64,000 nt of DNA. It comes from Candidatus Bipolaricaulis sibiricus (GTDB lineage: Bacteria; Bipolaricaulota; Bipolaricaulia; Bipolaricaulales; Bipolaricaulaceae). The stretch's first letter is position 1; each line of letters opens with the position of its first letter. Below, piece after piece: positions 1-29,848 of this stretch. Below the pieces are notes generated by a model. It was given only the letters and a program-made list of their open reading frames with translations. It was not told where the DNA came from and did not search any database. The stretch lies in the NCBI GenBank assembly GCA_004102645.1, contig CP034928.1, forward strand, positions 1,418,153 through 1,482,152, read 5' to 3'. The position numbers and the translations under genes were made by a program.

Positions 1-857
<857 letters not shown>

Positions 858-25866: not shown

Positions 25867-25895
25867 TTGCGCCTCGGTCCCCGGCGGGGTAAGCT
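25867..25895 (+). promoter_or_regulatory. promoter of the fluoride riboswitch operon
   Basis: TTGCGC (25867-25872) and TAAGCT (25890-25895) are separated by 17 nt. The predicted start of transcription near 25902 is immediately before the riboswitch aptamer, as expected for a leader RNA. Confidence 0.6.
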
Positions 25896-25906
25896 CGGTC
25901 CAATCT

Positions 25907-25955
25907 CGGGGATGGAGTCCCCCGTGAACCGCCCTCAAGGCTGATGACTCCTGCC
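25907..25955 (+). promoter_or_regulatory. fluoride riboswitch (crcB motif) aptamer
   Basis: The leader RNA matches the crcB-motif fluoride aptamer in order and spacing: GGGGATGGAGTC (25908-25919), CCCC, AACCGCC (25927-25933), then GGCTGATGACTCCTGCC (25939-25955). P1 pairs GGAGTC (25914-25919) with GACTCC (25946-25951). The 5' GGGG (25908-25911) pairs with CCCC (25920-25923) as the pseudoknot. GCC/GGC closes the small hairpin around CTCAA. The same conserved words (GATG, AA-C-GCC, GGCTGATG, CTC) occur in the Thermotoga petrophila aptamer. Fluoride binding with Mg2+ should stabilise P1 and switch the downstream genes on. Confidence 0.87.
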
Positions 25956-25979
25956 GCGATCGGGGGGACGGCAGGAGTC
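25946..25979 (+). terminator. riboswitch expression-platform hairpin
   Basis: GACTCCTGCCG (25946-25956) is the exact reverse complement of CGGCAGGAGTC (25969-25979), an 11-bp stem with a 12-nt loop. Its 5' arm is the same strand that closes P1 of the fluoride aptamer, so aptamer and hairpin exclude each other. This is the usual off-state terminator arrangement, though no clear U tract follows directly. Confidence 0.7.
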
Positions 25980-25988
25980 CCGTGATCG

Positions 25989-26014
25989 CCCTGCTCGGCA
26001 GGGTTCTCTCTTGC
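25989..26014 (+). terminator. second leader hairpin with pyrimidine-rich tail
   Basis: CCCTGC, loop TCG and GCAGGG (25989-26003) form a 6-bp stem followed by the T-rich TTCTCTCTTG. This looks like a weak intrinsic terminator. It could complete the riboswitch platform or end transcripts from the upstream dehydrogenase gene. Confidence 0.45.
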
Positions 26015-26041
26015 CTCCCGGTCGCGCCCAAGGAGCTCGAC

Positions 26042-26161
26042 ATGGGTCGACGCGACGACGAAAAGGTGTGCGGAGTTCCTGTCTCCCCCTCGCTGAACTT
26101 CCAGGCAGGGGAACGGTGCCCACGCCGGGTTCTGCGGCTGACCACGTGTGAGGGGGCGTAG
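26042..26161 (+). CDS. 39-codon leader ORF before the antiporter
   Basis: ATG at 26042 is preceded by AAGGAG with ideal 6-7 nt spacing and opens a 39-codon frame (MGRRDDEKVCG...TTCEGA) ending with TAG at 26159-26161, two nucleotides before the antiporter ATG. The antiporter start itself has only a weak ribosome binding site, so the small frame may serve for translational coupling or encode a small protein. It is not recognisable by similarity and has no signal peptide. Two cysteines are present. It is too short to be sure it is real. Confidence 0.45.
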   Translation: MGRRDDEKVCGVPVSPSLNFQAGERCPRRVLRLTTCEGA

Positions 26162-26163
26162 GT

Positions 26164-27474
26164 ATGTTCGAGATCACCAGCCCAGTACTGGGAATGGGCG
26201 TGCTCCTCCTCGTCGGGTACGTCGGCGGCCGCCTGGCGCGGCTGGTCCGTCTCCCCGCGGTCGCCGGGTACGTCCTGGCGGGCGTGCTGCTCGGCCCATC
26301 GGTGTTGCGGGTGGTGCCGGCTTCGCTCCAGGAGAGCATGATGCCCCTGAAGGACTTCGGGGTGGGAATGGTGGCGATGGTCATCGGAGCCGAGCTGGTG
26401 TGGCGCAAGATGAAGCGGCTCGGGCTGAGCATCTTCCTCATCTCGGTCTGCGAGGCGGCAGCGACGTTCGTCCTGGTGTACCTTGCGATGCGCTACCTCC
26501 TCGCCCAGCCGCTCGTGGTCGCTGCCACCCTCGCTTCGCTCGCCACGGTGACGACGCCGGTTGCCACGTTTGCCGTGATCCGCGAGTACCGCGCCAAGGG
26601 CCCCTTCACGAGCACGTTGCTCGGGGTGATCGCCGCGGACGACATCTGGTGCATCACGGCCGTCGGGATCTCGGTGGGCCTCGTCCTGAGCATGGGCGTC
26701 GAGACGAATGCGCTCCAGTTCGCGCACCTCGTGCCCCCGCTCCTCGAAGTGGGCGGCTCGATCGGCCTCGGCCTGGGCATCGGCTTGCTGGCGGTGCTGG
26801 CGCTGCGGTTCATCCGCGATGAGTTGGAGACCCTCGCCTTCGTGGCAGCGATTGTGTTCGTCAACGCCGGCCTCAGCCGGTACCTCGGGATGTCTGCCCT
26901 TCTCATGACGATGTCGAGCGGCGTCGTGATCTCGAATCTTCTCCACGAGGACATCCTCAAGGTCATCCACCGGATCGACGTTCCCATCTTGATGGCGTTC
27001 TTCACCCTTGCCGGGGCGGGGCTCGACCTGCGCGTCCTTGTCGCGAACTGGTACATCGCCGCGGTGTACATCGCGTTCCGCATCCTCGGGAAGACCGGCG
27101 GCTGCTACGTGGGCGCCCGGATCTCGAACGCTGACCCGAAGGTGCGACGGTACCTCGGCCCGGCGATGCTCACCAAAGCTGGACTCAGCCTCGGGCTTCT
27201 CATCTACATGCAGGAGCGGCTCGCCGGGCTCGGGGTCGCGGCCCTGCTCGGATCGGTGGAGCTAGCGGCGATCACGTTCTTTGAGATCACTGGTCCCATC
27301 GCAGTGCGGTGGGCCCTGTTCCGGGTGGGGGAGGCACGGCACCCCGGTGAAGTTCTCGGCGAGGAGACGGTCAGTCCCGCCGAGGGTCTCCCTGCACCGA
27401 TGGGCAGCCTAGTTCCGGTCTCAAACGTGGTGCCGCTGCCTGATGGCGTCCACGATGAGGAGGCCGCTGAGTGA
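26164..27474 (+). CDS. CPA2-type cation/proton antiporter under fluoride riboswitch control
   Basis: A 436-residue membrane protein of the Na_H_Exchanger (CPA2/KefB-like) family with about 12 transmembrane segments. The ion-binding aspartate pair is Asp159-Asp160 in GVIAADDIWC, and the unwound TM4 stretch TVTTPVATFAV and the TM10 lysine region ILGKTGG are present. There is no C-terminal TrkA domain; the tail from 385 is hydrophilic. Fluoride riboswitches mostly control CrcB/Fluc or CLC-F but also some proton antiporters, so this protein may move fluoride or help cells survive it. The stop codon shares bases with the next gene's start (TGATG). Confidence 0.88.
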   Translation: MFEITSPVLGMGVLLLVGYVGGRLARLVRLPAVAGYVLAGVLLGPSVLRVVPASLQESMMPLKDFGVGMVAMVIGAELVWRKMKRLGLSIFLISVCEAAATFVLVYLAMRYLLAQPLVVAATLASLATVTTPVATFAVIREYRAKGPFTSTLLGVIAADDIWCITAVGISVGLVLSMGVETNALQFAHLVPPLLEVGGSIGLGLGIGLLAVLALRFIRDELETLAFVAAIVFVNAGLSRYLGMSALLMTMSSGVVISNLLHEDILKVIHRIDVPILMAFFTLAGAGLDLRVLVANWYIAAVYIAFRILGKTGGCYVGARISNADPKVRRYLGPAMLTKAGLSLGLLIYMQERLAGLGVAALLGSVELAAITFFEITGPIAVRWALFRVGEARHPGEVLGEETVSPAEGLPAPMGSLVPVSNVVPLPDGVHDEEAAE

Positions 27475-29042
27475 TGACGCGCAGCGCTCGGGAAACAGGT
27501 CTTGCAGCCACGTGGACATACCCGATCCGTGCGCGAGAATTCCGGCCTCCTGGGCGTTCGCCACGCCGCGGTCAGGACGAGCGTCTGGCGGCACACCCCC
27601 CGGATGTTGGATTGAAAGACCTGACCCCACGGCCTCCACATCATCGGGGCGACCCTGGCCTGCCTGAGCTCGTGCGCAAGCTCGCCCAACCAGGCTGCCT
27701 TCTCTGTCGCGAGGCAGCGGAGGCCGAGGAACGGTTCTTCCTGTGGTACCTCGCCGAGAGCTACCTCTTCCCGGAGAGCTTGGACCACATGATCCGCGCT
27801 CACGGCTTCTGCTCACCCCACACCCAGGCGTTCCTCGAGGACGGGATCCCGTCCACCATCGCCTACGTGTACCGCTTCCTGGCGGCGTCCGCACTGGATG
27901 CTGTGGAGACGGTGGAGGGACCGCGAGCGCACGGGAGAGAGCTGCGGTACCGGATCGCGGCCCTCTTCCCAACGGCATCCTGCCTCGTCTGCGTACGCCA
28001 GAATGCTCACCTGACCTATGTCGAGCAGCTTCTGGCACGCCTGTTGCGTGATCGAAAGGTCCGCCCGGAGCTTCCGCCGAGCCTGGCGGTGTGCCTCCCC
28101 CACCTGCGCGCGCTTGCCCCGTTCCTCGATCAGCACGCGCTTCAGCTCCTTGCCACGGGGCTGCGGGAATGCCTCGCCGCGGCCGATCCCCGCGCTACCC
28201 GGTCGTGGACGTGGGGTACGCCACCGCCGCCCACCCCGGCCACGCCGGAGATCTGCGTCGCAGATGAGCATTCGACCACGCTCGATGCGGTGCGGAAGGT
28301 CCTGGCCACGCCGGGTTGCGCGGTGTGCCGGGCCGAAGCCGTCGCGGTTGGCCAGTACATCGCTTGGCTCGAGCGAGAAATCCACACTGCACCCAACGCA
28401 ACGTGGCACAGCGGTCTGGCGCTGTGTCCGAGCCACGGCTGGCAGTTCGCGCGGAGTGCGGCCGAGGACGCGGTAACCCAGCTGGCCGTCGCCGTTCGGC
28501 TCTTCTGGACAGAACGGCTGGCCGAGCTTGCGGAGGCGCTCACCGCCGCGCCCCGCGGGGGCCTCGGCCGCCGGTGGGCGTTCGTGCGGGCAACGATCGA
28601 ACGCCGCCACGGATCACGCCGCGAGGCGTTCCTGACCGCGGCAGCGGAGGCCCTGCGCTCCCAGCGGCGAACGGCAAGAACCAACGCGGACCGCGCGTTC
28701 CGCTGCGCACCTTGCCCCGTCTGCCAAGCCGCAGAGACGGCGCGTGAGCGAACCCTGTCCCTCATCACCGCCTCGCTCGGCGATCCCGGAGTCCAGCAGG
28801 CCTACAACGCTGGAGATGGTGTGTGCTGGCGGCATCTACCGGGGGCCGTGACCCGCGCCCGGTCGTCCGAAGCCGCGCTCATCCTCCACACGGCACGGGT
28901 TAGGCTCTCCGTCCTCAACTGGGAACTCGAGGAGTACCTCCGCAAGCAGAGCTGGGACACGCGCCATGAGGCGCGGGGACCCGAGGGGGGAGCGTGGCAG
29001 CGCGCAGCGCGGCTTCTCTCCGGAGTGGATCAGGCGCCATGA
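27474..29042 (+). CDS. protein with four CxxC...CxxH modules, function unknown
   Basis: An unrecognised protein of up to 522 residues, soluble, with four evenly built metal-binding-like modules, each CxxC, 32-34 residues, then CxxH. Counting from the GTG at 27471, the Cys/His sets are 76/79/114/117, 171/174/208/211, 283/286/319/322 and 415/418/452/455. Each CxxC is followed by a helix rich in Ala/Glu/Arg. The pattern resembles DUF6062-like proteins. The first 60 residues are low-complexity and unlike protein, and contain a relative of the 14-kb repeat (27616-27628), so the true start may be internal near 27640-27670. Start coupled to the antiporter stop (TGATG). Confidence 0.7.
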   Translation: MTRSARETGLAATWTYPIRAREFRPPGRSPRRGQDERLAAHPPDVGLKDLTPRPPHHRGDPGLPELVRKLAQPGCLLCREAAEAEERFFLWYLAESYLFPESLDHMIRAHGFCSPHTQAFLEDGIPSTIAYVYRFLAASALDAVETVEGPRAHGRELRYRIAALFPTASCLVCVRQNAHLTYVEQLLARLLRDRKVRPELPPSLAVCLPHLRALAPFLDQHALQLLATGLRECLAAADPRATRSWTWGTPPPPTPATPEICVADEHSTTLDAVRKVLATPGCAVCRAEAVAVGQYIAWLEREIHTAPNATWHSGLALCPSHGWQFARSAAEDAVTQLAVAVRLFWTERLAELAEALTAAPRGGLGRRWAFVRATIERRHGSRREAFLTAAAEALRSQRRTARTNADRAFRCAPCPVCQAAETARERTLSLITASLGDPGVQQAYNAGDGVCWRHLPGAVTRARSSEAALILHTARVRLSVLNWELEEYLRKQSWDTRHEARGPEGGAWQRAARLLSGVDQAP

Positions 29043-29848
29043 TCTTCACCTCCACCCGCAGCGCGATTCGGCAGAGCGTTGTGCGCAGCGAGCTGCGGTT
29101 GAACCTCCTTCGCATCTGTGCCCGCCAGCCACGGACGATCCACGACCTCATCCACGCCCCATCCTATCCCGGAATCGAGACAAACCTATTCACAATCCAG
29201 TCCGAGATCGGCGTCACGATCGAGCTTGGTGAGTGCAAGAACCGCGAGCTACTCGTTCGGGTGGGGCACGTCCCCGACCCGATCGTCCCTGACGGACACA
29301 CCGAGCTTCTCCGGACATCCCTTCTTGCATTCTTGCTCGTTCCAGAGCTGGCCTACGCCGAGCCCGAGGCGTACAGGTTGTACCTGGACGCCTGGTTCGC
29401 GTCGCCCGCCGTGACGGAGGCGTTGGGCACCCAGGCCCCCGAGGTGCAGGCTGTGTTCCTCGCCTTTCCCGAGCTCGCCCATCGCCTGTTCTGCGTGACC
29501 CACCCTGGCCGAGAGCGTCGGGCCGAGCTCCCGTACGATCTTGCCGAGACTGAATGGATCCGGGTGTTCAACCTCTACCACATCGCCGACCTTCCTGTCC
29601 GCCCGGCTCGTCTCCCCGTTCGCGAGCTGCTGGCGGCCCTGCGCAGACCCCCGCTCGACTTCGGCGGGAAGCGGCTTCAGGGGAGTCACTGGAAGGCCGT
29701 GAAGGGTCGCCGGATGCGGTCCTTAATCCGCTTGGCACGCATCCTTGGTCGCCGTCCGATCCACGCCACGCCCTCCCCGTACACAGTCTCCGACCTTGCG
29801 GGTCCCGAGCTCGTCGAGCACCGACTCCGTCCCTTCGCGGCCTCCTGA
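29039..29848 (+). CDS. protein of unknown function coupled to the CxxC-module gene
   Basis: A 269-residue soluble protein that I do not recognise. The N-terminal 50 residues (VRSELRLNLLRICARQPRTIHDL...) could form a winged-helix-like domain. The middle has PELAYAEPEAYRLYLDAWF and two cysteines (ICARQ, ECKNR), and the C-terminal third is rich in arginine, ending in a PIHATPSPYTVSDL block. The ATG overlaps the stop of the CxxC-module gene (ATGA), so the two are made together and may act together. It is the last gene of the fluoride-riboswitch unit and is convergent with the WD40 gene. The 29849-30060 gap shows no further gene. Confidence 0.7.
   Translation: MIFTSTRSAIRQSVVRSELRLNLLRICARQPRTIHDLIHAPSYPGIETNLFTIQSEIGVTIELGECKNRELLVRVGHVPDPIVPDGHTELLRTSLLAFLLVPELAYAEPEAYRLYLDAWFASPAVTEALGTQAPEVQAVFLAFPELAHRLFCVTHPGRERRAELPYDLAETEWIRVFNLYHIADLPVRPARLPVRELLAALRRPPLDFGGKRLQGSHWKAVKGRRMRSLIRLARILGRRPIHATPSPYTVSDLAGPELVEHRLRPFAAS

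Follow-up and report, generated by a model that had tools for sequence, protein, structure and literature searches.

Locus and conservation of the leader

The window, the whole 64,000-nucleotide stretch of the Candidatus Bipolaricaulis sibiricus genome analyzed here, carries a promoter-like site with a fluoride aptamer directly behind it, followed by a leader and then by a Na+/H+ antiporter gene. The sites and genes of this locus are the following.

25867-25895, + strand: promoter-like site TTGCGC-17 nt-TAAGCT, read from the alignment of relatives
25899-25960, + strand: fluoride aptamer RF01734 found with cmscan, P1 25907-25911/25920-25924, pseudoknot 25914-25919/25946-25951
26030-26035, + strand: Shine-Dalgarno (SD) sequence AAGGAG, 6 nt before the start codon, conserved in all six leaders of the clade
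26042-26161, + strand: leader ORF of 39 aa (37 aa in relatives), its stop 2 nt before the antiporter ATG
26164-27474, + strand: Na+/H+ exchanger family gene (PF00999, CPA2-like), the presumed regulated gene

The aptamer scores 55.5 bits against the gathering score of 34 and is the sole RF01734 match of the 1.70-Mb genome. A fluoride riboswitch had been called in the preliminary description of this DNA, and on this sequence match we consider 25899-25960 a genuine RF01734 fluoride riboswitch that probably binds fluoride. Four relatives have TTGTGC-17-TACACT at the position of the promoter-like site. Since this site lies at 25867-25895, transcription should begin at the aptamer, and we infer a start site near 25902. 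At the window edge, which cuts it, the start of a 16S rRNA gene occupies 1-855 (- strand).

The relatives that carry the same leader are MAGs labelled Bipolaricaulota/Acetothermia, one of them labelled Thermotoga sp. The clade comprises six leaders, that of the window and five others, the sixth (L018, in genome G006) being close to the end of its contig and lacking the antiporter. The L018 leader is intact through the start codon and runs into an apparent internal piece of a DUF6062 gene, an arrangement that reflects either a deletion or an assembly fault. Between the window and the relatives, the leader is mostly 75-100% identical through the start codon, and identity then drops to 53% in the leader ORF, 40% in intergenic DNA, and 74% at antiporter third positions. 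Divergence within the clade is too small for covariation, and two-sided changes were not found there. A single contig scan for more leader homologs returned the same four MAGs, a Halanaerobiales MAG (L052), and one weak archaeal match. A plasmid search returned aptamer-like stretches, with a single match over most of the aptamer and the hairpin behind it (76%, E 0.6). The fetched flanks of antiporter homologs at 41-44%, those of the L052 group, held no fluoride riboswitch.

The stop codon of the leader ORF precedes the antiporter ATG by 2 nt in the window and four relatives, and its start and stop are kept. A conserved peptide was ruled out, since the sequence differs between the window and the relatives. 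Within the genus, the antiporter was found only in leader-carrying genomes (its own and four others), and antiporters are already known as genes of fluoride riboswitches (PMC11139923).

Two further genes were observed behind the antiporter. A DUF6062 protein (27471-29042, + strand) lies between the antiporter and a protein of about 270 aa encoded in the antiporter operon (29039-29848, + strand), which has the motif ICARxPRTIHDLIHAPDYPGI, gave no match in Pfam, NCBIfam, or PHROGs, and yielded a structure model too poor for use (pLDDT 53). In many of the phylum's genomes, the family with this motif follows fluoride riboswitches directly, at L010, L012, L016, L017, L022, L024, L026, L029, L030, and L074, and is a candidate new fluoride-response gene. 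Proteins resembling the DUF6062 protein come after fluoride riboswitches at L009 and L027.

A conserved hairpin on the pseudoknot strand

The leader RNA can adopt several mutually competing structures, which are listed below.

25946-25979, + strand: H1, 11-bp hairpin 25946-25956/25969-25979 on the pseudoknot strand, without a U-tract
25956-25989, + strand: Hs, alternative hairpin 25956-25961/25984-25989 plus 25965-25969/25977-25981, predicted with the pseudoknot docked
25988-26012, + strand: H2, hairpin 25988-25994/25998-26004 with the pyrimidine tail UCUCUCUU, a candidate attenuator
25946-26038, + strand: long rod, the predicted ground state, which would mask the SD; 25946-25952/26031-26038, 25955-25965/26016-26026, and 25970-25977/26008-26015, with H2 at the tip

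H1 is perfectly paired as the preliminary description had stated, GACTCCTGCCG at 25946-25956 facing its exact reverse complement CGGCAGGAGTC at 25969-25979 across a 12-nt loop. The same description took the strand shared with the aptamer for the 3' strand of P1, which is incorrect. In the Rfam alignment, P1 is the hairpin 25907-25911/25920-25924, and GACTCC at 25946-25951 forms the 3' side of the pseudoknot, opposite 25914-25919 (helix naming follows PMC11077080). This pseudoknot, GGAGUC/GACUCC between the P1 loop and the 3' strand, is invariant in all six clade members. The aptamer and the expression platform have the strand 25946-25951 in common, and activation by fluoride, as had been proposed, is the logic to be expected.

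H1 is one of two perfect hairpins in the 64 kb with 11 bp or more and a loop of 3-20; since shuffles give 0-3, its length is not unusual in itself. Among 20,000 dinucleotide shuffles of the linker, just one produced a helix of 11 bp or more that begins exactly where the pseudoknot strand does. All six members retain H1, with two differences, both of them G-U pairs, and its 3' arm shows 100% identity between the window and four relatives. As in a terminating platform, H1 competes with the pseudoknot; the U-tract expected directly behind such a hairpin is absent, as had been noted for the window, in every member (1-3 T in the following 8 nt). H1 is therefore not a standard terminator.

The crcB riboswitch of Bacillus cereus shares with the window the aptamer, activation by fluoride, and a pseudoknot 3' strand that serves as the 5' arm of a competing downstream hairpin (PMC11077080). 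However, that hairpin is an intrinsic terminator, whereas H1 has no U-run; the first pseudoknot pair is a U-G wobble in B. cereus and C-G in the window; and the window leader, unlike that of B. cereus, runs on to an SD.

Predicted masking of the Shine-Dalgarno sequence

When the window leader was folded up to the next start codon, the rod was the predicted ground state (-65.1 kcal/mol). The other five members of the clade fold the same way, and across the six the SD is buried, with a mean unpaired value of 0.17-0.18; a fold constrained to contain H1 is less stable than the rod by roughly 5-11 kcal/mol, depending on the member. In nascent-chain folding, H1 is the MFE structure until about 26022 and the rod thereafter; thus H1 appears as an intermediate of strand exchange. 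When both pseudoknot strands were kept from pairing, as a crude proxy for the fluoride-bound aptamer, the SD was predicted to be 0.47-0.82 unpaired in the six members. The SD is therefore predicted to be paired in the apo state and freed with the pseudoknot docked in every member, and this change is greater than in linker shuffles, weakly so for the window (P = 0.13) and more clearly for four relatives (P = 0.06, 0.017, 0.017, and 0.017), the members not being independent of one another.

The sequence AAGGAG stands 6 nt before an ATG or GTG in all six members. Its match with the pseudoknot strand spans 8 bp (UGACUCCU/AGGAGUCA) in four of the six; that of the window, 5 bp plus a bulge, is the weakest of the clade, as is its shuffle result. 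Two further points count against SD masking. Kinetic persistence of H1 would leave the SD partly free in the OFF state, at a predicted 0.40-0.70 unpaired, and any SD has partial complementarity to the pseudoknot strand.

Fluoride riboswitch platforms in the phylum and beyond

RF01734 matches were found in 28 of the 100 genomes searched. At about 15 other loci of the phylum with identifiable starts, the pseudoknot strand pairs over 5-11 bp with the SD region immediately ahead of the gene, the pairing at L007 spanning 9-10 bp. Strand and SD vary together in places (GGCUUCUACC/GGUGGAAGCC and UUCUACCC/GGGUAGAA), and a phylum-wide permutation of strand against SD zone over gene families gave only P = 0.05. 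The short platforms (L007, L011, L022, and L029) resemble the window in pairing the pseudoknot strand with the SD region of the regulated gene, but they have neither the H1/H2 arrangement nor a leader ORF, and their strand-to-start-codon distance is 29-84 nt as against about 95 nt in the window. The fluoride riboswitches of P. syringae and B. pseudomallei are treated as translational, since fluoride did not change termination there (PMC13273304). We liken the window to them at this level, platform details aside; its leader carries H1, H2, and the leader ORF.

Terminator-like loci are few in the phylum: L020, L075, L072, and perhaps L076, which was initially unclassified and was called terminator-like only once its first pseudoknot pair was known. 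In L052, whose antiporter is 58-59% identical, an 11-bp hairpin occupies the same place and is followed by UUUUU. The geometry of H1 is that of such terminator-type platforms, which counts against a translational reading.

All clade members and the 15 SD-type loci of the phylum have C-G as their first pseudoknot pair. Four U-tract-type loci have U-A or U-G instead; three of these belong to the phylum and the fourth is L052, and one of the four, L072, has only 4 T in 8 nt. A wobble or weak pair at this position helps terminator-type switching (PMC11077080). In an outside sample around the genome of L052, the pair is weak in 49 of 56 U-tract loci and C-G in 7; among 11 loci of the non-U-tract type, it is C-G in 3 and weak in 8. 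As a clean marker of platform type the pair was rejected, being strong within the phylum, only graded outside it, and confounded by GC content; we use it as weak support.

Several unusual loci were also seen. The aptamers of L011, L014, and L019 are 79-107 nt long and carry an additional stem-loop that separates P1 from the AACCG segment. Three fluoride riboswitches (L012, L030, and L073), two of them back to back, lie within about 2 kb at 15418-17437 of contig C127 in genome G025. The terminator-type riboswitch L020 precedes a gene for a HyfC-like hydrogenase subunit, named from its translated sequence only.

Transcriptional and translational alternatives

The preliminary description centered on how transcription terminates. 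It was right that H1 lacks a U-tract but missed the rod and the conserved SD at 26030-26035, which the pseudoknot strand is predicted to mask. Since many relatives in the phylum also have platforms in which this strand pairs with an SD, how the leader terminates may be the wrong question. The second hairpin that it described exists (25988-25994/25998-26004, tail TCTCTCTTGCC), the range given for it, 25989-26014, being hairpin plus tail. Although H2 and the aptamer do not overlap, Hs could couple the two, and we therefore retain a relay, either as the leading rival reading or as the first of two layers of the switch. In such a relay, H1 would form in the absence of fluoride, leaving H2 complete, and RNA polymerase would stop on the pyrimidine tail; with fluoride, H1 would not form, and Hs together with the free 3' arm of H1 pairing with CCUGCY would weaken the base of H2 so that transcription continues. 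The predictions agree with this in that Hs takes C25989 from the base of H2 and the basal C-G pair of H2 has a probability of 0.68-1.0 in the apo state versus 0.06-0.54 with the strands blocked (six of six members, 37 C). Both arms of Hs, GCGATC and GATCGC, show no variation among the six members, and the invariant GATC at 25984-25987 has no partner in other folds. The H2 tail has 5 T in 8 nt (4 in one member). In this genome, at 67% GC, hairpins of this kind are rare, at 8 of 302 gene ends versus 1 of 266 intragenic controls (384-kb sample, crude gene caller). H2 is the single terminator-like site that a scan found in 4 kb, which alone proves nothing because shuffles average 1.3. The tail is, however, mixed U/C, and in four members docking of the pseudoknot leaves the core of H2 in place in the predictions (0.93-0.98). 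Rod pairing with GGCAGGAG also explains the conservation of the tail, and conservation of the leader continues well beyond H2, as far as the SD. We regard the relay as possible but doubtful.

Alternatively, transcription could terminate at H1 itself despite the missing U-tract, either unaided or assisted by Rho or NusG. The 11 bp of H1, starting at pseudoknot position 1, have the geometry of the terminators of L052, L075, and L020, and the genome encodes Rho, but the scarcity of T behind H1 in all six members makes this quite unlikely. Standard intrinsic termination relies on a U-tract. We give slightly less credence still to H1 masking an SD of its own, AGGAG at 25973-25977 before a GTG at 25982 that would open an ORF of 57-59 aa in frame with ATG 26042. 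That frame is open in all members examined and the GTG is present in four of six; on the other hand, GCG replaces it in two members, the spacer is only 4 nt, and chance alone is likely to leave 20 codons open in GC-rich DNA. Lastly, the two layers may act together, fluoride controlling attenuation at H2 and then SD access of the antiporter-coupled leader ORF. This joint claim, which we consider rather improbable, would give the pseudoknot strand three competing partners (aptamer loop, H1, and SD) and a second strand, 25956-25961, two (25984-25989 and 26020-26025).

A proposed ON switch acting mainly on translation

We favor an ON-type fluoride riboswitch acting mainly on translation, though at hardly better than an even chance; we give the relay to H2 about half that probability and consider termination at H1 unlikely. 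In this translational switch, the pseudoknot 3' strand (25946-25952) would leave the aptamer when fluoride is absent and first form H1 as the RNA emerges. Once about 26025 is transcribed, the RNA would refold into the rod, in which the pseudoknot strand pairs with AGGAG at 26031-26035. The rod would hide the ribosome-binding site of the leader ORF and hence affect the antiporter too, which starts 2 nt past the ORF stop and may be translationally coupled to it. With fluoride present, the strand would be held in the pseudoknot, and the rod core could still form while the SD stays free. We consider H1 a conserved, early strand-exchange hairpin, possibly a former terminator hairpin that has lost its U-tract.

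Within the phylum, our observations suggest that the type of platform is linked to how strong the top pseudoknot pair is. The leader offers a concrete, testable case of what may become of the architecture of a U-tract-terminator riboswitch when the genome is 67% GC and U-tract terminators are few. The invading hairpin is retained, and the output appears to have moved to the ribosome-binding site.
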